This document shows positions 5,728 to 47,638 of a DNA stretch of 47,638 bases, in pieces; position 1 is the stretch's first letter, and each line of letters opens with the position of its first letter. A program made the position numbers and the translations under genes. The DNA comes from a virus. Where the stretch lies: positions 1 through 47,638 of the IMG/VR virus record IMGVR_UViG_3300049043_000184; one strand, given 5' to 3'. Under the pieces are notes generated by a model. The model was given only the letters and a program-made list of their open reading frames with translations, made no database searches and was not told the DNA's origin.

Positions 5728-6023
5728 CTGATGATCGTGAGTCAATGATTGACGAAGTCATTGACAAGTTTAAATTTGAGCGTGTCCTTATTGCCATGAC
5801 AGCACTTGACTGGCAGTGGCAAACAACCGAAGGTAATGGGCACGCAGTACCAACCTTGGTGAAGCTCAAAGCAATGGCACGCCACTTGCTAAGAGAATCC
5901 ATCAACAACAAAGTAGTTGGCTCTGGTGGATTCGAAGCTCGTTACCATCCCAAGGTTGATGATGAACCTGAGTACTTTGTATTGAAATTCATTCTTGATC
6001 ACGCAGATTCCTACGATGACTAA
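5724..6023 (+). CDS. hypothetical protein, 99 aa
   Basis: Starts MTDDRESMIDEVIDK. The central part has ALDWQWQTTEGNGHAVPT then a helix with KLKAMARHLLRE, a pattern found in phage hypothetical proteins of unknown role. It overlaps its neighbours at both ends (ATGA upstream, 8 bases downstream), supporting translational coupling. Confidence 0.65.
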   Translation: MTDDRESMIDEVIDKFKFERVLIAMTALDWQWQTTEGNGHAVPTLVKLKAMARHLLRESINNKVVGSGGFEARYHPKVDDEPEYFVLKFILDHADSYDD

Positions 6024-6189
6024 ACAAATCATTTACAAAGAAATCATTCAAATTAATGGACGTGAATACACAGTAACAACCTGTGATTATTCTGATTCTG
6101 TTAATGAATTGATTCAAAATCAAATTATTGAAAACAACAATCAAGAAATTATCAATCACATCGTTGATGACATTGTTAATTCACAATGA
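6016..6189 (+). CDS. hypothetical protein, 57 aa
   Basis: Starts MTKQIIYKEIIQINGREY; Asn/Gln/Ile-rich with a polar, probably flexible C-terminal half. The internal ATG was chosen over an upstream one because it lies at the preceding stop codon. Overlaps the next gene by 4 bases. Confidence 0.55.
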   Translation: MTKQIIYKEIIQINGREYTVTTCDYSDSVNELIQNQIIENNNQEIINHIVDDIVNSQ

Positions 6190-8694: not shown

Positions 8695-8730
8695 GACCAG
8701 CCTTAGCCTCGATACTAGGGCTGGTCTTTT
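8695..8730 (+). terminator. Rho-independent terminator
   Basis: Stem GACCAGCC/GGCTGGTC (8 bp, perfect) with a 16-base loop, followed by TTTT. It ends 4 bases before the next ATG. Confidence 0.65.
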
Positions 8731-8733
8731 ACC

Positions 8734-8955
8734 ATGACAAACGACTACACCGATGATCAACTCCTGGCCATGGCCATGGCAAACATTGGTGAATTTATTC
8801 ATGACAATTCACCACACTACGTTTTAATTGAAGAAGATCCTCGCAATGAGGATGATTACGACACGTGGGATTATGGTTGTGAACCATTGCCTCACGATCA
8901 CACTTGGCATTCAACTTCCATTGAAGTTGATGTAAGTCCAAGTGCGCCCGAGTAG
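8734..8955 (+). CDS. hypothetical acidic protein, 73 aa
   Basis: Starts MTNDYTDDQLLAMAMANI; highly acidic with a His-rich segment PHDHTWHS near the C-terminus. The last codons overlap the candidate tRNA at 8946. Unrecognised. Confidence 0.6.
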   Translation: MTNDYTDDQLLAMAMANIGEFIHDNSPHYVLIEEDPRNEDDYDTWDYGCEPLPHDHTWHSTSIEVDVSPSAPE

Positions 8956-13550: not shown

Positions 13551-13566
13551 TTCTGTAGGTACTTGC

Positions 13567-13612
13567 GGGTTGTTTGGAATTGGATAGCATTTATTCGTCT
13601 TCCAAACAACCC
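13567..13612 (+). promoter_or_regulatory. 13-bp perfect inverted repeat before a start codon
   Basis: GGGTTGTTTGGAA (13567-13579) and TTCCAAACAACCC (13600-13612) pair perfectly around a 20-base loop. The stem ends 1 base before the ATG at 13614, so the folded RNA would hinder ribosome loading. No T-run follows. Confidence 0.65.
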
Positions 13613-13613
13613 A

Positions 13614-13846
13614 ATGTCCTATGTAATTGCCTGCTGGAAAAATGACCAGCCTTTTGCCATCACTGCTGATGTAAAGTCCAAGCAATTCCTGTTGATTCCG
13701 TTAGAGTCGGAAGTAGCTTTAAACAAGATTTTTCTCATCCTTATCGGGCTGGGGCACAACAAGTCTTGGAATGGATCAACAAGAACAATGCAGAACTATC
13801 CGGTCAAGAACTCTCAATTCAAGATGAAGCCCGCTTCCGCAGGTGA
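13614..13846 (+). CDS. hypothetical protein, about 77 aa, one frameshift
   Basis: Begins MSYVIACWKNDQPFAITAD. One base is missing in the T run 13729-13733; with it the protein continues FSHPYRAGAQQVLEWINKNN and ends QDEARFRR at a TGA inside the start of polA. The continuous frame without correction runs into polA with an unlikely hydrophobic linker. Translation would be coupled to polA through a 23-base overlap. Unrecognised. Confidence 0.5.
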
Positions 13847-16429
13847 AACGTTTTTAATTTTTGATTTAGAAACCAATGGTCTTTACGATCAGGTTACGCA
13901 AGTCTTTTGTGTTGTCATCCATGACGTCAACAAACAACAAACTTTTACTTACGGGCCTGATCGCATTGATGCTGCTATTGCTCATCTGGCAACCGCTGAT
14001 TTTCTTATTGGTCACAACATAATTTTTTATGACCTTCCAGTTCTACAAAAACTACATTCATTTGACACCAAATCATGCATCATCGATACGCTTGTTTGTT
14101 CTCGTTTGATCTGGCCCAAAGAAGTTTTGGAGTCTTTGGACAATGAACAACATACGCAGGTTCCAACGTACTTACGTGGATCCCCATCACTTAAGGCTTG
14201 GGGATGGCGCTTGGCCGATCATAAGATCGACTTCAAAGACTTCGCTCAGTATTCCCAAGAGATGTTGGAATACTGTATTCAGGACGTTGAAGTTACTAAA
14301 AAACTTTGGTTACACATTTACAAACAACACTATCCGGAACCCGCGCTCAAGCTGGAACATGACTTTGCTTGGACAATTAACAAACAAATTAGATCAGGTG
14401 TTCCTTTTGATTTTGATGCAGCTCTTAATTTTGTGGATGTACTACGCGCAAAACAACAAGAACTTGAAAACGAATTAAAAAGAATCTTTCCACCTATTCG
14501 ACACAGCACTTGGTTTACACCCAAGGTCAATAACAAAACGCGTGGTTATGTTAAAGGAGTTCCCTTTGAAAAAGTCTGCGTTGAAGAATTCAATCCAGGA
14601 TCTCGTGACCAGATTGCTGATCGACTTAAACAAAAGTACGGATGGAAACCAGAGAAGACAACTGAAAAAGGAAATCCAATTCTTAATGATGAAGTATTAG
14701 AAACACTGCCATACCCAGAGGCTAAACTGTTGGCAGAATACATGTTGGTTAAAAAACGTCTTGGTCAAATTACAGAAGGTAAAAATGCTTGGCTCAAACT
14801 CTACAACAATGACACTGGTTGTATCCACGGCGACGTCATTACTAACGGTTGCATTACTGGGCGCTGTGCACACCGTAATCCAAACATGGGCCAAGTCCCT
14901 GCTTCTTACTCCCCATATGGAAAAGAATGTCGTTCTTTATTCCATGCTCCTTACGGGTGGGACCTCATTGGCATTGACGCTAAAGCACTTGAGCTACGTT
15001 GCCTCGCTGGGTATTTGGCACTCTGGGATGACGGAGAGTATGCCTCTCTTGTTGTAAACCCAGACGTTGATATTCATACTTACAACCAAGAACAGTTTGG
15101 TGTTGCAACCAGGGACATTAGTAAACGTTTGTTGTATGCATGTGTTCCATCAGATATTACAACCCTGCTGACAAAAGAAGGATGGAAAAGATACGAAGAT
15201 CTTAAGGTAGGTCAATTGGTATTGACATATAACGAAGAAAAACAAATTAAAGAATGGAAACCTATTCTTGAAATAATTCAAGAACACGAAGACGAAGTGT
15301 TTCAATTAGAGCATAATCATTCTTTTAAGGTTCAAGCAACAGCCGATCATCGGTGGTACGTAAAGAAACGTAAGCGCAATAAAAACACACAATGTGGTTG
15401 GGTTACAGGTAAAAACTATATGGTTCCCATGGTTGAAACAACTGTTGATATCAATACTGAATCAAACATTATTGTTAATGCGCCATTGGTTGAAGAATAT
15501 TCAGAAGGCATTGAGATTGATTGGTCTTGGAAAAAGTATGGCACTAACTGGTCTGAGATAGTTTTAAAAATGAACTCAAGACAACGCAGGGCTTGGTTGT
15601 CTGGTTTTATGATTGCTGATGGTTTTCAATCTTGCAAACCTGAACCAAAAGAAAAATGGCACTGGACTCAAATACGCAATGAGCATTTTGAAGCTGCTTT
15701 ACTTGCTTCTTATTTGGAATTTCCTGGAGTTATTCACGTTGCAAAACCCCGCCAAAATAATAGTGGCACAATTCAAATGCATGTAAGTATTGCTAATAAA
15801 GGTCATGTGACTGGGCAGAGACTTCAAAGAACTTGCATAGGAAAGAAAAAAGTCTTTTGCATTCGCACAGAGAATAAATCTTTTGTTATGCGCCAGGGGA
15901 TTGCATTACAATTACCGGAAATTGTTTGTATGGCGCGGGCAGTTTAAAAATGGGAACTATTATTGATCCGGATGAAAAAAATGAAGTTGTTTTACGTCAA
16001 CTAGGAAATACTGCAATTAATTTATACATGCGCGGTGTACCTGCATTAAAGAAATTAAAACAGCAAATTGAAGAAACAATTGGAACGCGTGGATACTTGG
16101 TTGGCTTAGATCGCAGGGTGCTTCACTGTCGTTCATCGTTTAAAGGATTGAATGTTTTATTGCAATCAGCAGGTGCAATTCTTATGAAACAAGTTGTTGT
16201 ATTTGTACATAACAACATTAAAGAAAACTTAGGTCTTGAGTATGGCCACCATTGGCAACAACTTTTAATGGTCCATGATGAAATCCAACTTGCTTGTCAT
16301 CCTGATTACACAGACAAAATTAGAGAGCAGGCTATGATGGCTTTCCCACAGGCACAGGAGTTTTTTGGTTTCCGTTGTTTAATTGAAGGAGACTCCCGCG
16401 TTGGTAAAACATGGGCAGAAACCCACTAA
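13824..16429 (+). CDS. polA: family A DNA polymerase (T7-like) interrupted by an intein
   Basis: The start at ATG 13824 (MKPASAGETFLIFDLETNG) places the 3'-5' exonuclease motif I (DLE) at residues 14-16, as in phage T7 polymerase. Exo II is LIGHNIIFYD and Exo III is EYCIQDVEVT. Polymerase motif A is IGIDAKALELRCLA, motif B is RDISKRLLYA joined to CLYGAGSLKMG, and motif C is MVHDEIQLA. Motif B is split by an intein (15141-15922). There is no 5'-3' exonuclease domain. A one-base loss in the G run at 15896-15899 breaks the frame inside the intein, so the two parts appear separate. Excised length is about 607 aa. Confidence 0.9.
15141..15922 (+). other. intein with DOD (LAGLIDADG-type) endonuclease remnant in PolA motif B
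   Basis: Begins at Cys1 (CVPSDITTLLTKEGW, splicing block A), with block B ATADHRWYV and an endonuclease-like block RAWLSGFMIADGFQS. It ends, after restoring one G, with ENKSFVMRQ, then CITITGN, followed by Cys+1 of CLYGAG. The last residue is Asn as required, although the usual penultimate His is Gly. Length is about 261 aa, short for a full homing endonuclease intein, so the nuclease may be reduced. The insertion falls between two residues of the fingers helix that binds the incoming dNTP. Confidence 0.85.
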
Positions 16430-28576: not shown

Positions 28577-29795
28577 CAGTAAGCCGCCTTAAAACCCGTG
28601 ATTATTTTGTCAATATACTCAAAGTTTTCGTCTGTGAGTATTGGTGCAGTACTCATGAAAAAACACACGACTTAAAACGTCGTAACCATTTGGATAGTCC
28701 TTGGCGTCGCCCAGGTGTTTGTAGGCGGGGTGCAGTAAGAGATTGCCAGCAAAGTAATTGCGCGTTTGGATGCCGTTTGCTTCTAAATACAGTTGAAGTT
28801 CTCGTTTGAACGTCTTGTCAGAACAAACAATGGGCACACCAAACCAAGAGGTTTCGGCTGTTGGTTCTTCTTCGACAACACGCAAGTCTTTATTCAGCTT
28901 GCCAAGAAGTTGTTTGGTGCGTTCGTAGTTTTCCCTGCGCTTTGCGTGGATCTCGTTGAACTTGGTTAGTTGCACTTGCCCAATGGCGCCTTGCAAATCA
29001 ATCGGTTTTAAGTTGTAGCCAATCTGGCTAAACACATATTTGTGGTCAACTACGCCGTCGTATCCTTCCAGCCATTGGTCAAAGCGTTTACCACAACTGC
29101 CGTTGATCAACTGATTGCAGGAACCAACGCAATAACAGTCGCGTCCCCACCAAGCAAACTGACGGGCAAGATGGATAATCTCAGGTGTTTTGGAGTGACA
29201 CCATACCGCCTTCCAAGGTGGTGATGTGGTGCGCTGGATAGAACGATGACGAGGCGGCAACGGCGTGCTCAGTTAAATATTCACCTTTCCATTTGGACCC
29301 AAGGGAGTCACAGTTGTCAGCAATGTATTTTAGTGAGTGCTGTTCGCAGAGATCAAGGAGGAGGTCAAGGTCATAAGGATTGCCCAATACAGGACTACTG
29401 AAAACGGCAACTGTTTTTTCATTGATTGCTTCCTTGACTTGTTGCAGACTCCAATTCAAGTCATGCCAGGTAATGTCAACAAATCTGGGGACTAAACCAT
29501 TCTGGAGAATGGGGTTGACTGTAGTGGGAAAACCGACAACGCTGACAATAATCTCGGCGCCATCCGGCCAATCAAAATACTTTTTAAGGGCGGCGACCAT
29601 TACCAGGTTTGCAGAGCTGCCACTATTCACCATCAAGGAAGAATGGAAGTTGAAACGTTTAGAAAACTGCTTTTCAAACTTGTCAACTTCTTCGCCTGCT
29701 GGGTACCAGCTTCCTTCCCTCAGTGCCTTGACTGCTGCTTCAATTTCTTGTCCGTCAAAGTACGGTCCGGAGTACATAACCTTTGACTTAAACAT
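28576..29795 (-). CDS. CDP-4-keto-6-deoxyglucose 3-dehydrase (E1, RfbH type), two frameshifts
   Basis: PLP-fold sugar dehydrase. The motif SSFYPAHHITTLEGGM has His where aminotransferases have the PLP Lys, the hallmark of C3-deoxygenating enzymes. A Cys in ADNCDSLGS plus DCYC and SCGKRF match the Cys pattern of the iron-sulphur E1 enzymes. Frame breaks at an AAAA run (about 29195, one A lost) and a T run (about 28663, one T gained); correction gives a C-terminus SRVFFMSTAPILTD and ITGFKAAY ending at the rmlC start. The reductase partner (E3) is not seen nearby. It implies a 3,6-dideoxyhexose product. Confidence 0.82.
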
Positions 29796-34016: not shown

Positions 34017-36691
34017 AAGACGTGAATCAACAATTGAAGCCTGGTGAAATTCGCCTTGATTACATCCCGTTTGATTGGCCGCTAACTCCGCTGGGAGCAA
34101 AGAAAGATCCTTATGTTGCTGGGTGGCAGAACCGTCCTTTCAGCGTTAGGGAAGTAGAAGAAGAGATTGTTGCGGGTAAGTGCAAGGCCATTGGCTTGCT
34201 TGGTGGTCCTGTCTTTAACCATCCTTATGGTTTGGTGTGGGTTGATGTTGACGGTCCAAGCGTCTACAAGCTGTTAGAAGAGTTGTCGGAGCTGCCGCTG
34301 AAAGATGCGTTGCCTGATACTTTAACAATTCTTAGTGGAAAGAAGGGCGCGAGCGAAAGCTGTACCGCCTTGATCGAGAAAAACACAAGCACTTTGTAAG
34401 GAATAAATACACTTGGCACGGAGAAGAGAATAAAGAAAAACTTGAGATTTTGTGGAGGCGTCACCAAGGTGTGTTAATGGGTCTGCACCCAGAGACGGAC
34501 GGTTACTTCACTGCAGAAGATCAGGGGTTTGAGTGGGGCAATAAATTACCTGAATTTCCGGACTGGCTTCTGGCTGCCATCATCAACAAAAACGTCAAGC
34601 ACGGTGTCCCGGCAAAAGAAACAACACGAATTGTTGGTCCAACGTTCGCAATTAATAGTGTTGTTGATTTGGACCGTGACATCAAGCTAGCTACAGAAGC
34701 AACGTGGGGCATGCCTCCAGAGGTGGCGGATGATTACGACATTTGGATCACAACTGGCCAGGTGTTGCATTCTTTGGATGAATCGTTGCTTGACGTCTGG
34801 GATGAATGGTCTAAGCAGTCCGAAAAATATCAAGAAGGTGAGTGTCACAGAAGATGGTTGTCCTTTACGAAGGGTGGTGGTCGCGGCATTGGTTCTTTAA
34901 TTCACATTGCTAAAGAAAATGGCTGGGTTCCGTCTCGGGATTACATCGCTGAAGGCGTTGATGATGAACAGCTTGATCTTGCTGAGAAATTATTAGAAGA
35001 GCTTGATAAGAACGAACTGGACTTAATTCAAGGACCCGATGATCAACTTCCCATGATTATTAATGAACCAGTGACTAAGCCTGTTGCCCATGCTGTAAAA
35101 ATTCTGCGGGGAAGCGGGGCAAACAAAAACGAGAAGGGGTGAAGAACCATCACCGCGAAATGAACCCGCAGATGTTGTTGCAGAAAGGGTCCTGGCACTG
35201 TACGGGGAAAACTTAAAGTACAGCGACAATCAAGGATCTTTTTATATTTATGAGTATCGCTGCGCGGGTCTTTGGTCTCACTTGTCTGAAGTTGAGATGA
35301 AGAGTTCAATTAAGGACAAGCTTGAACAGGTGAAAGAAACAACGCTGCCCAAGGGGTACAGCATGCACATGATCAACGACGTCCTGGAGCAACTCAAAAT
35401 TTCAACACTGCACGAAGAGTGGTATGAAGGTAATGATTTTCTACTGTTTACCAACGGCATTCTGGATGTGAGCAGGAGGGAGTTGCTTGCGTTTGAACGG
35501 GATATGTTCATGACACAACAACTTCCATACGACTACGATCCCAGCGCAACTTGTGAACCAATTGTTAAGTGGTTGAAGAGTGCACAAGATAATAACTGGG
35601 GAAGGGTCCAGGTTCTGAGGGCTTGGTTGCGGGCAGTACTCTTGAGCCACTCTGAAATACAAAAGTTTGTTGAGATTGTTGGCCCAGGAAAGTCCGGTAA
35701 ATCAACTTATGCCAACCTGGCCCATGCTCTGGTTGGTGATGAGAACGCCATGATCTCATCTTTGGAGCACCTTGAAAAAAACAGATTTGAAACTGCAAAC
35801 CTCTACAAGAAAAAACTGCTGCTGTTCAATGACGTTGAACGGTACGGCGGATCAGTTTCTGTGTTGAAGGCGGTGACTGGTCGTGACCTCATCCGTAAAG
35901 AGCGCAAGTTTCAAGCTGGTTCCCAGAAGCCATTTAAATTTAATGGCTTGGTAATCATCACTGCCAATGAACCCATTCAAACTACTGATCCAACTTCTGG
36001 TCTTGCTCGTCGTCGTCTCACCATTCCTTTTGACCGTCCTTTTACTGGTAACTGTGCAGAGCAGCGAATTCTCATCGACATGGACGACAATGGACGTCCG
36101 TTCGGCGATTTTGCAAGTCTTCTGCCTGGCCTGGTGAACTGGGTGCTCGACATGAGTGAAGCGGAGATGCGTGAATATTTAATGGAGACAACGAAGAAAG
36201 TTGCGTTCTTTGCCAAGCATCACAGTGAGCAGATCCTTAAGTCCAACCAGATCATGGACTGGATGGAACACTGTGTTGTTTTCGATCCGGGAGTGTCTGC
36301 TGCCATTGGCCTGGCAAAACAAGCGCCGTCTGGTTCTACAAACGTTTACGTTTCTTGGAATGAATGGCTCTATGCCAGTTACTGTGAGTTTGCCAGGGCA
36401 TCCAACAGCAACATTCTTGGTCGTAGTCGATTTGAAACTTTGTTGATGGACGTTTGTGTACATCAGTTGCAATTAAATGTTTATAAATTTAAAGAGCAGC
36501 GTCGTGGCTTAAGGATTGTTAATATTGCATGTAGGGCTTCTGATCAGAAATACGCCAAGTATCCATCAATTGTTCAAGTTGGCTTGAATAAAGATGAATG
36601 GCGTATTCACTACGGCAACGTTCTGGACAAGAAGACAACTGAAGTAACTGAACCCGATGGAGAAACTAAGTGGGAAACGGACGCCATTTAA
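34013..36691 (+). CDS. primase-polymerase / SF3 helicase fusion, two frameshifts
   Basis: Read as one protein of about 892 aa. The N-terminal AEP-type primase-polymerase has IGLLGGPVFNHPYGLVWVDV followed by the acidic DVDG motif. One G missing near 34345 interrupts SGKKGRERKLYRL, and one extra G near 35128 interrupts NEKGEEPSPRNEP; frames resume cleanly each time. The C-terminal superfamily 3 helicase has Walker A GPGKSGKST, Walker B LLLFNDVE, motif C VIITANEP and arginine finger ARRRL, with a D5-type N-terminal region (LLFTNGILDV). This fits P4-family primase-helicases. It unwinds DNA and primes replication. Confidence 0.85.
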
Positions 36692-37029
36692 TCCTGGATT
36701 TGTATGAATGCGATCCAGGCGTTCTTGATGACTATGATCTGTTATCGCAAAGCCTGGAAACAGCCTTGTTAATGGCTAACGCAAACATCATCAGGATTTT
36801 TGGTGAGAAATTTAAGCCGCAAGGCGTGACTTTGCTGGCTCTTCTTTCTGAATCCCATGCATCAATACATACGTGGCCCGAGATGGGTTATGCGGCTGTC
36901 GATTTGTATACTTGTGGCGACAAAACAAAAACACATAAGGCCGCTCAGTTTTTAAAACACAAACTTAAAGCTAAAGTTTCAGAAGAAAAAGAGCTTGTAC
37001 GGTCAACCACCCCGCTAGATTGTGTATAG
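36670..37029 (+). CDS. speD: S-adenosylmethionine decarboxylase
   Basis: 119 aa, starting at GTG (MGNGRHLILDLYEC) overlapping the helicase end by 22 bases. LLSESHASIHTWPEMGYAAV contains the Glu-Ser autocleavage site that forms the pyruvoyl cofactor, with the conserved His and Glu, and YTCGD follows. It makes decarboxylated SAM for spermidine synthesis. speD is a known cyanophage auxiliary gene, thought to support polyamine supply during infection. Confidence 0.9.
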   Translation: MGNGRHLILDLYECDPGVLDDYDLLSQSLETALLMANANIIRIFGEKFKPQGVTLLALLSESHASIHTWPEMGYAAVDLYTCGDKTKTHKAAQFLKHKLKAKVSEEKELVRSTTPLDCV

Positions 37030-43134: not shown

Positions 43135-43989
43135 CTACAACTCTGGCATGTCATATTCTTTGGTTGTGTTGCAGTAATGTTTGAAAATAATTTCTGACGT
43201 ATTCCCGGCCCATAAAGCTACTTGAGGTACGGGAATACCAGCTTTAATCCAACGGCTAATTGCCGTATGCCTACAGTCGTAAGGACGATACATATGAGAA
43301 ATTAATTCGGCTTTGTGGAGCGGCTGTAATTTTTTACGAAAGTAACTTTGAAACGCAAGACGATCCCAAGGGAATATGTATTCTTGCTCCTGCGGAAGTT
43401 TTGTTAGTATTTCCTGACATTTATTGTTCAGCGGTACCCATCTTTTCTTATTGGTTTTGGTGCTATTTTTCAAGCCGTGTGTCAACGTCCAGTTTGAATG
43501 GACCAGGATTTTATTATCTTTAATGTCATCCCAACGTAATGCCCTAACTTCTCCTGTACGCATAGCAGTTTGAATCATGAATTCCGTATACCAAGCCCAA
43601 TTAACTTTTTTGTAAGTCAGCTTTGCTTCCAAAGCGGCAAGCACCAACCCCACTTCATTTCTTGGGATGACAATAATTTCTTCATCCCTTTGAGGAGCCT
43701 TTGGCATTTTGAAACTTGCCAGGGGATTCTTGTCTAGATAGCCCACATCCTCCTGTGCAGCCCACCTAAACATTGTTTTGGTATACATGGCCACGCGCCT
43801 GGAAGAAAGCACTGGCTTTTCTCCCAGCACCCAGATCATGATTTTTCTGGCTTCATTAAAATCTTGAATTGGGCAGCGGGCTAACCACTTACCAACTTGC
43901 TTGTAGTCTGAATCAAGACTGGTGGGACACAAGGAAATAGAACGCTCCTCCATGAAGGCGTCCCATAGTTCCGTCAAGGTGGTTGGCAT
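43135..43989 (-). CDS. int: tyrosine recombinase (phage integrase)
   Basis: 284 aa. Start MPTTLTELWDAFMEE. The catalytic residues are in place: Arg in MRTGEVRALRW, Lys in STKTNKKRWVPL, His-x-x-Arg in RPYDCRHTAISRW, His in FKHYC and the nucleophile Tyr just after (in KEYDMPEL or KHYC). The N-terminal SAM-like core-binding domain spans residues 1-100. It would mediate site-specific integration; the attachment site was not identified. Confidence 0.88.
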   Translation of the reverse strand: MPTTLTELWDAFMEERSISLCPTSLDSDYKQVGKWLARCPIQDFNEARKIMIWVLGEKPVLSSRRVAMYTKTMFRWAAQEDVGYLDKNPLASFKMPKAPQRDEEIIVIPRNEVGLVLAALEAKLTYKKVNWAWYTEFMIQTAMRTGEVRALRWDDIKDNKILVHSNWTLTHGLKNSTKTNKKRWVPLNNKCQEILTKLPQEQEYIFPWDRLAFQSYFRKKLQPLHKAELISHMYRPYDCRHTAISRWIKAGIPVPQVALWAGNTSEIIFKHYCNTTKEYDMPEL

Positions 43990-44067
43990 GAGTTGAAATG
44001 GTTGCGAGGGTGGCACACTAATGCACCACCCGACGCATGTCAACACCAGCGCCAGAGTTGAAGGTGA

Positions 44068-44286
44068 CTAAGGGGTTCTGCCAATTGATCTTTGGTCAGC
44101 AAGAAAGTCTTCCCAGCCTCTTCCTGAGATGTACTCAAGATGATGAGGTTTCATCGTTTGCTTTGCGCGAGGGTAGTCAGGCGGGATGTCCCAGACTGCG
44201 TGAAGCTTCACGAAGTTGCCGTTGCCGTCGCTTTCCACGTCGTAGGTGGGCGAGAAGTCGTTTGGAGTCCAGAGAACTCTTGGCAT
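44068..44286 (-). CDS. hypothetical protein, 72 aa
   Basis: MPRVLWTPNDFSPTYDVES, then GNFVKLHAVWDIPPDYPR and HHLEYISGRGWEDFLAD. A small beta/alpha protein of unknown role between the integrase and the retroelement. Unrecognised. Confidence 0.5.
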   Translation of the reverse strand: MPRVLWTPNDFSPTYDVESDGNGNFVKLHAVWDIPPDYPRAKQTMKPHHLEYISGRGWEDFLADQRSIGRTP

Positions 44287-44346: not shown

Positions 44347-44519
44347 TCAGTCGATGAAGGCTTCCAGCTCTTCATCGGCGTATCGAACTGACTTTGGTGT
44401 AATGGGACCTTCTTTGTCGTCGGCTGAATAGACTTCTTCCGTTGACTCTCGGCAGCAATGCCGCTGAGTGGGTTTGTGTCTGCTGCCGCAATGTCAGAGA
44501 GGTAATCTTGTTCGGTCAT
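44347..44519 (-). CDS. hypothetical acidic protein, about 57 aa, one frameshift
   Basis: MTEQDYLSDIAAADTNPLSG, then IAAES; a one-base shift near 44445 continues TEEVYSADDKEGPITPK and VRYADEELEAFID, acidic throughout. The uncorrected frame ends at 44325 with a basic, less protein-like tail. Small tail-chaperone-like acidic proteins look similar; no firm family. Confidence 0.45.
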
Positions 44520-44647
44520 GGTTTCTAGGGAACTGTGGCCATGGGGCAGGAGGCGCAAACTCGCTGCCCTACCACATTACAGCAAAAGGCAACCATCCGG
44601 GATTTCGATAGTTGCCCCACGCCTCGAAACGAGTAGGACTTCTGGGC

Positions 44648-44896
44648 TTAGGCCAAAGTTTGCTCGATTGCCTTGCGGTTCGCAAACCCCCAAGCTGCGG
44701 CAGCACCAGCGTTCCATTCCCGGCGGATCACAGGCGCGACATAGCCCTCGTCACCTTCTTGCAGGGTGCGGTCGTAGCCCTCGGGATAGACGGCATCGTC
44801 AAAGGTCACGTAGTCGTTGAGCAGCCCGGTTAAAAACGCGGATTGCTCTTGGCTGCTGGTTGCTGCCTGCAGGTCTTCAATGGTGTTGATCAGCAT
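44648..44896 (-). CDS. hypothetical protein downstream of the DGR reverse transcriptase, 82 aa
   Basis: MLINTIEDLQAATSSQEQSA, then LLNDYVTFDDAVYPEGYDR and YVAPVIRREWNAGAAAAWG. The ATG overlaps the RT stop (ATGCTGA), so it is translationally coupled to the RT. It may be a DGR accessory or an unrelated tail-region gene; no family recognised. Confidence 0.6.
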   Translation of the reverse strand: MLINTIEDLQAATSSQEQSAFLTGLLNDYVTFDDAVYPEGYDRTLQEGDEGYVAPVIRREWNAGAAAAWGFANRKAIEQTLA

Positions 44897-45864
44897 GGGG
44901 AAGCAAGGCCCATGTGGGCCAATCCGTTCTGACCATCAGCATGGCGCACATGGCCCATCCAGGCAATTTGACAGGAGCGCCAACCCTCATAGTCCTCGTG
45001 CGCCAGGAGCAGCCGTAATTTGCGGCGTTGCCGAATCATGCTCTGACGCTTGATCAGCTTGAATTTGCGGCGGATGCGAAAGCCGCAAAAGGTAACGCCG
45101 CGCTCCACTGGGCCCAGGCTCCATTTGCCAATGCGCTGGCCCATCTCTAAATCCACAAACGCGCAAATTTCATCCTTTAAGGCCAAGCCGTCAGCCTTGT
45201 TTGCCACAATGATTACTGCATCGTCCATGTAGCGGACAAAGTTGCCAATCCCTTTGGCTGCAATAAAGCGATCCAGCTTGCCGCCCCAATAGTTGGCAAA
45301 GGTCTGACTGGTCAATGCTCCAATCGGCACGCCTTTTGATTGGACTGACAAAACCTGCTCAATCAGCAGCAGCGTTCGTCGGCATGTGATTTTTTTGCCC
45401 AGATGATTCAGCAGTAGGTCCTGAGGAATTGACGGAAAGAACTTGCTAAAATCCACGTGAAGCACCCAGGCGTCTGGGTTTTGGCGCATCAGCTGTTGCA
45501 TCCGCGTTACGCATTTGTGTGTGCCAAGACCAACCCGGCAGGCAAAGACCTGGGGCATCATGGCGGCATCAAGGATGGGGCCGACCACTTGAATCAAGGC
45601 GTGATGAAGCACGCGGTCGCGGAAGCTCTGACACGCAATCGTCCGCTTTTTAGGGTCAATGATGTCAAACTGAAGCTGTGCATCAGGCCGCCACGCGCCT
45701 TCAATAAGACGAAGCTGCAGCTGCCGAAGATTGGCCAGCGCGTATTCCTTAAAACGCAAGTAGGAACTGCTGTAGGTTTTACCTCGCCGGGCTTCTGCGT
45801 AAGCCGTCAGCAGGTTTTCCCAGGCGTAAATCTGCTGGTAAAGATTGCGAAACTTCTGGCCCAT
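44890..45864 (-). CDS. DGR reverse transcriptase
   Basis: 324 aa, the usual size for DGR RTs. Motifs: FRDRVLHHAL (region 2), LHVDFSKFFPSI (motif A, first Asp), KGVPIGALTSQTFANYW (the DGR-type motif 4 with SQ), FVRYMDDAVII (YMDD active site), then a C-terminal thumb with CGFRIRRKFKLI. It copies the TR RNA with errors at adenines, and the cDNA replaces VR. It lies downstream of TR in the canonical order target-avd-TR-RT. Confidence 0.95.
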   Translation of the reverse strand: MGQKFRNLYQQIYAWENLLTAYAEARRGKTYSSSYLRFKEYALANLRQLQLRLIEGAWRPDAQLQFDIIDPKKRTIACQSFRDRVLHHALIQVVGPILDAAMMPQVFACRVGLGTHKCVTRMQQLMRQNPDAWVLHVDFSKFFPSIPQDLLLNHLGKKITCRRTLLLIEQVLSVQSKGVPIGALTSQTFANYWGGKLDRFIAAKGIGNFVRYMDDAVIIVANKADGLALKDEICAFVDLEMGQRIGKWSLGPVERGVTFCGFRIRRKFKLIKRQSMIRQRRKLRLLLAHEDYEGWRSCQIAWMGHVRHADGQNGLAHMGLASPC

Positions 45865-46019
45865 TGGAAGGTAGCGGCAGGTTTCGATGGACTACTCCCT
45901 GCCATTGCCACCACTCGGCCCTGAGTTTGCCGAAGCTGGTCTTGATGGCTGGCACCTGGTAGGCACCGGCCTGCTGCCCCGTAGAAACAGCAGAGCGTGG
46001 TGGTGTTTGGCAGTGGCCA

Positions 46020-46126
46020 CGGCCGCAAAACGCGCCCCAATGTTGTTGTTGGAGTTCCAGGGAGTGTTGTTCCAGTTGGCGTTACGTGAGCCGGAGTTGG
46101 CCCCGTTGTTCCAGTTGCCCCCCAGG
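46020..46126 (-). repeat. DGR template repeat (TR)
   Basis: 107 bases matching VR (46591-46697) without gaps. The sense strand has 28 adenines in the aligned part, mostly in AAC codons. Its translation would read GGNWNNGANSGS, then NANWNNTPWNSNNNIGARFA, the Asn-rich pattern of DGR templates. The final 21 bases are free of adenine and identical in VR. It lies between avd and the RT gene. Confidence 0.95.
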
Positions 46127-46141
46127 ATGACGGCGCTCCCA

Positions 46142-46546
46142 TCAAGACCGCTCACACCTTGGCACCTTTTTGTGCTCTTGCAGCCGCTTAATCCAGCTGC
46201 CGAGCATGGCGCCAACCTCACCCACCAGGGCCTGACTGGTCTCCAGCTGGTGCTCGGTCATCAGCTTGCGCTTGTGATGCACCATGAAGCGCAGCAGCAA
46301 CCGCAGCTGGCCCAGGCTGCCATCGAGCACGTAGCAGCGGCTGAGCTGGTTGGCCTTGATGGCGTCGTTGAGGTGCTCGGCCACCAAGAAAAGCTGGCGG
46401 ATGAACAGCTCGCGGAAGGTGCCGTGCTTGCGGGGAATGGTTTGAGCGAGCGGGTAGAGGTAGTCGATCACCCGCTCGTACTTCTCGACCATGTAGAGGC
46501 CATGAGCCTCCTTGGAAGGGTCCGCAGAGGCTCGCTTGCTGGTCAT
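46142..46546 (-). CDS. avd: DGR accessory variability determinant (Avd)
   Basis: 134 aa. The core resembles the pentameric four-helix-bundle Avd: KYERVIDYLYPLAQTIPRKH, then FRELFIRQLFLVAEHLNDAI, then RCYVLDGSLGQLRLLLRFM and VGEVGAMLGSWIKRLQEHK. It is basic, as expected for a protein that binds TR RNA and partners with the RT. Only 15 bases separate its stop from TR. The first in-frame ATG (MTSKRASADP) may be upstream of the true start at MVEKYERV. Confidence 0.9.
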   Translation of the reverse strand: MTSKRASADPSKEAHGLYMVEKYERVIDYLYPLAQTIPRKHGTFRELFIRQLFLVAEHLNDAIKANQLSRCYVLDGSLGQLRLLLRFMVHHKRKLMTEHQLETSQALVGEVGAMLGSWIKRLQEHKKVPRCERS

Positions 46547-46554
46547 TGGCAGTC

Positions 46555-46568
46555 GGCGCTGTCGCGCC
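46555..46568 (-). promoter_or_regulatory. DGR post-VR hairpin
   Basis: On the minus strand GGCGC-GACA-GCGCC: a perfect 5-bp G/C stem with a GACA tetraloop, 23 bases beyond the 3' end of VR and between the target stop codon and avd. In BPP-1 a hairpin in this position stimulates cDNA homing to VR. Confidence 0.75.
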
Positions 46569-46570
46569 TC

Positions 46571-47638
46571 CTATCCAAGTACCAAGTGCCCGGCCGCAAA
46601 ACGCGCCCCAATGGAGTTGTCGGAGACCCAGGGAGTGTCGACCCAGTTGGCGATACGTGAGCCGGAGTTGGCCCCGTCGCTCCAGTCGCCCCCCAGGATG
46701 ACGGCGCGGGCATCTGTTGAGTAGACGCTGCCTCGACCCTCTGTGCTCGCTGTCCAGGCCCCGCCAGAGCCGTTGCCGCTGGTGTCTGCACCCCACTGGT
46801 ACATGACACCTGTGGCTTGCGCCAGGCCAAACTTGCTGGCCCGCTCCCAGATCACCGTGCCAGGGTCAGTGCCGCGGCTGCCAGCCTCCGGGGCGCCAAA
46901 GGCAGCGGCAGCAAACTCCGCATAGAACGGAAGACGCTTGCCAAAACTGGCTGCCATCTCCGACGCCTCGTACCAGGTGAAGCTGCCGTAGGTGGTGCTG
47001 CCGTTACCGCCGTACTGGGCGGGCACCAAGGGAGCACTGGACCCGTCTGCAATGGTCAAGCCGATCTTGCTGCTGGGCACCGCAGAGAAGGTGCTGCCGG
47101 CATAGCTGGTCGCGCCTGCCAGATACAGGTCGATCCAGAACGCATCGTTGATGCAAGCCATGCCACGGGGGTCCGGGCAGCTGGGCCGGTAGGTCAGATC
47201 CCAAATGCTGAACTCCAGGATCTCGGCGGAGCCAGTTGGGCTGCCGTTGTTTTCAGCCGTGGGCCGACCGCTGGGAATGTAATGAAAGCCGCCCACGATG
47301 GATCCGCCTGTGGCTCCTGCGGGTGCAGTTATGAAACTTGCATCAGCTACCAATGCACCAGAAGTTGGATGTTGCCAGATGGCGTAGTCGGTGTTGTTGG
47401 TAAAACTGCCGGGCATTGTTACAGCAGTGGCACTACTGTAGAAGTATCCGTTAAATGCTGCATTGGCAACAATGCTAATTGCCGTGCTAGAAGTTTTATA
47501 AAACAATGAACCACGTTGCAACGGTGGTCGCTTATTGAACCCTTTTAGAATGTTGTAACCACCATTAACTTGAAGTAGAGCGTCGCCAGACGCACTAGAC
47601 GTGCCCACTAAGAGCCTGCCGGAACTGTCGATGCGGGC
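46571..47638 (-). CDS. DGR target: tail-fibre-like protein with C-type lectin/FGE-fold end, partial
   Basis: The frame stays open to the right edge (IDSSGRLLVGTSSASG, a motif of phage tail fibres), so the true start is outside. The C-terminal 200 residues carry SFTWYEASEMAASFGKRLPF and GTVIWERASKF, and end in the VR-encoded segment ILGGDWSDGANSGSR, then ANWVDTPWVSDNSIGARF and GHLVLG. This is the formylglycine-generating-enzyme-like C-type lectin fold used by DGR targets, with variable residues on the binding face. It is probably the host-receptor-binding tip. Confidence 0.9.
   Translation of the reverse strand, partial: ARIDSSGRLLVGTSSASGDALLQVNGGYNILKGFNKRPPLQRGSLFYKTSSTAISIVANAAFNGYFYSSATAVTMPGSFTNNTDYAIWQHPTSGALVADASFITAPAGATGGSIVGGFHYIPSGRPTAENNGSPTGSAEILEFSIWDLTYRPSCPDPRGMACINDAFWIDLYLAGATSYAGSTFSAVPSSKIGLTIADGSSAPLVPAQYGGNGSTTYGSFTWYEASEMAASFGKRLPFYAEFAAAAFGAPEAGSRGTDPGTVIWERASKFGLAQATGVMYQWGADTSGNGSGGAWTASTEGRGSVYSTDARAVILGGDWSDGANSGSRIANWVDTPWVSDNSIGARFAAGHLVLG
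46591..46697 (-). repeat. DGR variable repeat (VR)
   Basis: C-terminal end of the target gene, ending 18 bases before its stop codon. It differs from TR at 12 positions, all adenine in TR (A to G seven times, A to T four times, A to C once), changing nine codons (for example AAC to GAC, AGC, ATC, GTC, TCC). No change occurs at any non-adenine position. Confidence 0.95.

Follow-up and report, generated by a model that had tools for sequence, protein, structure and literature searches.

A complete diversity-generating retroelement (DGR) lies on the minus strand at one end of a 47,638-nucleotide viral contig (IMG/VR record IMGVR_UViG_3300049043_000184, the whole of which is called the window here), and it is very probably a functional element of the BPP-1 kind that acts on the tail-fibre gene of a freshwater cyanophage. 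Every defining feature of a DGR that can be tested from sequence is present, the layout is that of Bordetella phage BPP-1, and the hairpin is a variant. While this kind of DGR is already known, the cyanophage biology is new, and less expected are the divergence of near-identical cassettes in VR only, the repeated loss of the machinery, and the probable exchange of the cassette between phage backbones. These results point to hypermutation of the host-binding tip, in the manner known from Bordetella phage, across a broad group of cyanophages, with evidence of activity in nature, and they open host-range switching in viruses of cyanobacteria to direct tests. In the papers searched for cyanophage DGRs, this group is not described; the global DGR survey of Roux et al. 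2021 (PMC8144416) may include these contigs without discussing them.

Anatomy of the cassette

The original prediction, that target, VR, avd, TR and RT form a complete DGR in canonical order, is borne out by matches to Pfam, PHROG, Rfam and solved structures (Table 1). Between positions 44648 and 47638, the order on the minus strand is an Mtd-like target gene with its VR, a hairpin, avd, TR, the Phage_DGR RNA, RT and a small conserved gene. The predicted start at 44890 does lie within the DGR and is slightly too narrow, because the cassette includes the small gene and has its left edge at about 44634. That gene comes after the target in loci with and without a DGR alike. The 5' end of the target is truncated by the end of the contig.

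Table 1. Features of the DGR cassette and its immediate surroundings in the window
Feature	Position	Strand	Evidence
Target, Mtd-like tail fibre / receptor-binding protein, 355 aa, partial	46571..47638	-	Pfam mtd_2nd 1.4e-19; phrog_11262 7.7e-126; structure 1yu4
VR, 117 bp, 3' end of target	46591..46707	-	117-bp match to TR, 12/12 differences at TR adenines
Target-recognition hairpin GGCGC-GACA-GCGCC, flanks GA..GA	46555..46568	-	22 bp past VR; conserved in 38/38 Mtd-group cassettes
avd, accessory variability determinant	46142..46546	-	Pfam bAvd 9.3e-21; BPP-1 Bbp7/Avd structures 4dwl, 8ub7
TR, 117 bp, 28 adenines	46020..46136	-	match to VR
DGR spacer RNA between TR and RT	45870..45996	-	Rfam RF03022 Phage_DGR, 69.9 bits, E 5e-10, full length
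DGR RT, YMDD intact	44890..45864	-	RVT_1 6e-14; phrog_1423 1e-87; 8ub7_A E 1e-67
Small conserved gene after RT, phrog_30757	44648..44896	-	phrog_30757 E 2e-36
Tail-fibre module joint GCCCAGAAGTCCTACTC, 17 nt; homology to L002 ends here	44631..44647	-	joint in 18 other contigs
Tyrosine integrase, separate module of phage backbone	43135..44046	-	Phage_integrase 1.2e-14; S-LBS1 integrase 77.5%

Every Mtd variant of Bordetella phages with a solved structure (chains 1yu0-1yu4) matches the target, 1yu4 best of all (E 5e-55, residues 46-354). By these matches the VR occupies the 3' end of a C-type-lectin-type target, and this part of the gene probably encodes the lectin-type tip known from the BPP-1 Mtd. 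The template-Asn positions of the VR align with the sites that differ among the Mtd variants, as judged by eye from printed alignments. An AlphaFold model of the target built with 22 sequences had a mean pLDDT of 49, with the C-terminus below 40, and was discarded as structural evidence, so that the proposed lectin fold rests on sequence similarity. In different phages (L007, L010, L011, L069 and L025) the Mtd body is joined to several unrelated N-terminal adaptor segments. Avd matches the BPP-1 structures 4dwl (E 8e-30) and 8ub7 (E 5e-29), and the RT, which is 39% identical to BPP-1 Brt, has an intact active site and carries the motifs YMDD and IGALTSQ.

A hairpin of the form GGCSC-GNNA-GSGCC stands about 22 bp past the VR in all 38 cassettes of the Mtd group; none was found past the VR in three distant loci (L058, L093 and L095). 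The stem is GGCGC/GCGCC in 27 cassettes and GGCCC/GGGCC in the other 11, a change that preserves the pairing, and the second base of the loop is free (GACA in 22, GCCA in 7, GGCA in 5, GTCA in 2, GTTA and GAAA in one each). GA..GA flanks the stem in 32 of the 38 and could stack as tandem sheared G-A pairs, which would extend the stem; the flanks in L070 are TA..TA, which pair. Phage DGR hairpins have a GC stem of 7-10 bp (8 bp in BPP-1) and the loop consensus GRNA (Guo et al., PMC3240598), whereas hairpins of this group mostly have 5 Watson-Crick bp plus GA..GA, with the window's loop, GACA, fitting GRNA. The set of variants extends the known target-site rule. The 13 loci where the small gene directly follows the target, and both avd and RT are missing, all lack the hairpin; since it is present with the machinery and absent from these machinery-free loci, the hairpin goes with the machinery.

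If the element works as in BPP-1, the RT with Avd would copy the TR RNA and the downstream spacer, and random bases would be put in opposite template adenines. The mutated cDNA would then replace the VR at the 3' end of the fibre gene and leave the TR unchanged, its homing presumably guided by the identical VR 3' end and the hairpin behind the VR. Altered receptor-binding residues in the C-type lectin tip of Mtd would in turn alter host recognition. Of the predicted change of host range through tail-fibre diversification, the part that stands is a BPP-1-type DGR on an Mtd receptor-binding tip; the effect on host range is expected by analogy with BPP-1.

Diversification of the VR

TR and VR align over 117 bp at an offset of 571, not over the 107 bp first given. 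As had been predicted, all 12 differences fall on the 28 template adenines, a placement unlikely to arise by chance (hypergeometric p = 4e-9), and setting the repeat ends by plain BLAST gave the same result. The TR/VR codons confirm that nine residues near the target C-terminus are altered, with N replaced to give D318, S320, D321, I329, V333, D334, V338, D340 and S342 in the numbering of the partial target; I329 is the only one of the nine that, by eye, faces a constant Mtd position. The VR has 16 adenine-bearing codons, which allow about 8e15 different proteins. An ordinary duplication followed by random or selected substitutions might be entertained, given that the VR lies within the receptor-binding domain, where positive selection is conceivable. 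That reading is refuted by the adenine specificity, seen in every difference in the window and recurring in 41 cassettes, and its probability is negligible.

These cassettes come from scans of viral_contigs, which gave 60 loci through the target and 46 through the RT. Among the 41 with a detectable TR/VR pair, a set that contains a few overlapping or near-duplicate contigs and is thus not fully independent, 602 of 644 mismatches lie at template adenines, a count that may be inflated a little because the search for repeat ends is lenient on adenine mismatches. Adenines make up 1,084 of the 4,724 positions, and the changes are A>G (322), A>T (153) and A>C (127).

The cassette of contig L002 (IMGVR_UViG_3300049043_000256) is 99.6% identical to that of the window across 3 kb, and its TR, avd and RT are identical. 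Over 2,901 aligned bases the VRs differ at 8 of 117 sites, all 8 at template adenines, against 3 of 2,784 outside the VR (about 7% versus 0.1%; Fisher p 8e-10). A second pair, L015 and L019, has 22 differences in the 117 bp of the VR, 19 of them at adenines, and one in 1,280 bases outside it (p 6e-24). The TRs of L002, L003, L005 and L008 match that of the window letter for letter, and the VRs of L003, L005 and L008 differ; comparison of contigs thus reveals a VR that varies while the TR is constant. Two close pairs, L027/L028 and L011/L012, share the same VR. The alignment of TR and VR in related contigs, which had been proposed as a check, therefore gave the expected concentration of VR variation at template adenines, as far as contigs can show. 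A cassette nearly identical to that of L002 and differing from it mainly in the VR indicates activity in nature, either now or recently.

It is very unlikely that the DGR is instead a decayed relic in which the VR differences date from long ago. S-CBS1 and S-CBS3 are among several relatives that have lost the machinery, and the TR of L081 is depleted of adenines, but all genes in the window are intact and a VR that differs from its L002 counterpart at 7% of sites, next to 2,784 flanking bp that differ at 0.1%, argues against old variation. In L081 (9173-9289 and its TR) there are 13 adenines instead of about 27 and many non-adenine mismatches, and this TR looks like a decaying or overwritten template. 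L011 and L012 are two DGR copies 40 kb apart on one 58.6-kb contig, 99.8% alike and with identical VRs; perhaps this genome was assembled around its own end.

Probable exchange between backbones and loss of the machinery

The backbone (about 1-44600) has a GC content of about 45% and S-EIV1-like genes for a primase, speD, a glycosyltransferase and an endolysin. The integrase and speD (36670-37029) named in the original prediction are real; hli was not found, a PF00504 search and an HLIP-motif scan both being empty. The pairing of a DGR with an integrase had been thought uncommon. Of the 16 contigs searched, 8 have a Phage_integrase: L098, and 7 of the 15 that the window's target or RT had picked up. 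The pairing is therefore common in the group. The integrase gene suggests that the phage is temperate; an att site or lysogen was not identified. The integrase module (43137-44070) is 96% identical to that of L098, with flanks that lack a match, and forms a second mosaic block beside the DGR. The genes for DNA polymerase, an aminotransferase and primase (13563-16429, 28619-29795 and 34450-36691) are each split across two frames, and the L002 fibre gene also has frame breaks; both are possibly long-read sequencing errors. A conserved leader at 44501-44606 (minus strand), with a GGGCAG...CTGCCC stem-loop ending in ACAGTTCCCTAGAAACCATGACC, occurs once in the window and in about 20 S-EIV1-like contigs, followed by different small ORFs.

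The L002 contig (71 kb, GC about 60%, lambda-like tail genes) has only the cassette in common with the window, up to position 44634. Cassettes that are 99.6% identical on unrelated backbones point to exchange of the cassette or, with lower probability, to a chimeric contig. At the edge of the cassette, just after the small gene, is the joint GCCCAG[A/T]AGTCCTACTC, which in 18 contigs stands right past the stop, or forms the last codons, of different upstream genes, and of which L002 carries the first 14 nt. As GCCCAGWAGTCCTACTC (44631-44647 and L263-L280), it marks the ends of unrelated tail-fibre-region genes. Fibre modules may recombine at this 17-nt joint. A role of the AGTCCTACTC joint as an att site was rejected, as it is absent from the window's two tRNAs and several contigs have it without this integrase nearby.

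A real DGR in a chimeric contig, with the cassette of an L002-like siphovirus (GC about 60%) fused to an S-EIV1-like backbone during assembly or through a chimeric read, is improbable, though it deserves serious weight. The identity to L002 ends at 44634 without any sharing of the backbone, GC steps at about 44050 from about 45% to the 55-65% of the cassette, none of 80 integrase relatives has the DGR, the exact junction sequence has no match in other viral_contigs, and a single metagenome yielded both L002 and the integrase relative L098. Against a chimera, the joint terminates many different fibre modules in S-EIV1-like phages, and its 17 nt are too few for a usual assembly overlap. The first 14 of them are present in L002 as well, and relatives hold a fibre gene in exactly this slot beside the integrase. 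One such relative is L098, with an integrase 96% identical at the DNA level; the tail fibre in its slot, upstream of the integrase, does not belong to a DGR and ends in an S74-type chaperone (typed by eye). The occurrence of the joint in 18 contigs, the 14 nt in L002 and the fibre slot in L098 thus favour natural module exchange over chimerism, and the cassette most likely reached the fibre slot by recombination at the short joint. The description of the element as the DGR of a temperate phage with speD hangs on one junction near 44634, which no other contig shows in full. Origin of the cassette from a host chromosome was rejected, as no cyanobacterial genome with the window's RT was found in genome_contigs, in a scan that reaches only close relatives.

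Related loci comprise 32 that are complete and 13 that are cleanly without machinery. Others bear scars: L013, L021, S-CBS1 (L050) and S-CBS3 (L097) keep the hairpin together with a piece of avd and/or the RT 3' end, and in L017 the hairpin alone remains. Several of the machinery-less or scarred loci are near-duplicates of one another. The upstream breakpoint lies after the hairpin, at about avd codon 23 or at about avd codon 60, and we read these differing breakpoints as at least three deletions. In a target tree built without the VR, loci with a DGR do not group together, and a switch between presence and absence occurs at least seven times on well supported branches. The scars give the direction as loss; the clean loci could be losses or could never have gained the machinery. 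The last 45 or so codons of the deleted RT persist as a short open reading frame that has an ATG of its own in S-CBS3 (about 6000-6110) and S-CBS1 (about 8700-8812), and the lone 'mtd' genes of these cultured phages are explained as remains of deleted DGRs. There is about an even chance that the cyanophage Mtd module and its DGR move as a unit between unrelated lineages via the short joint, diversify the VR after each move, and are repeatedly silenced by deletion of avd, TR and RT, so that what remains, as in the two S-CBS phages, is a frozen fibre next to a hairpin and an RT scar.

Comparison with known systems

The cassette resembles the BPP-1 DGR (mtd-avd-TR-brt) in gene order, Mtd target, Avd, RT, Phage_DGR RNA, 3' VR and a post-VR hairpin with a 4-nt loop. 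It differs in belonging to a cyanophage, in having cyanophage fibre modules in place of the Mtd N-terminus, and in a hairpin with a 5-bp rather than 8-bp stem, GA..GA flanks and a free second loop base. The mtd loci of Synechococcus phages S-CBS1 and S-CBS3 share an Mtd homologue (63% and 82% identity), the hairpin and the same downstream gene, but have lost avd, TR and all of the RT except the 3' scrap of about 45 residues. L002 shares TR, avd and RT with the window; its VR differs and its siphovirus-type backbone is unrelated. Synechococcus phage S-EIVl (S-EIV1), in contrast, shares the backbone genes primase, speD, glycosyltransferase and lysozyme and has no match to the window's DGR cassette.
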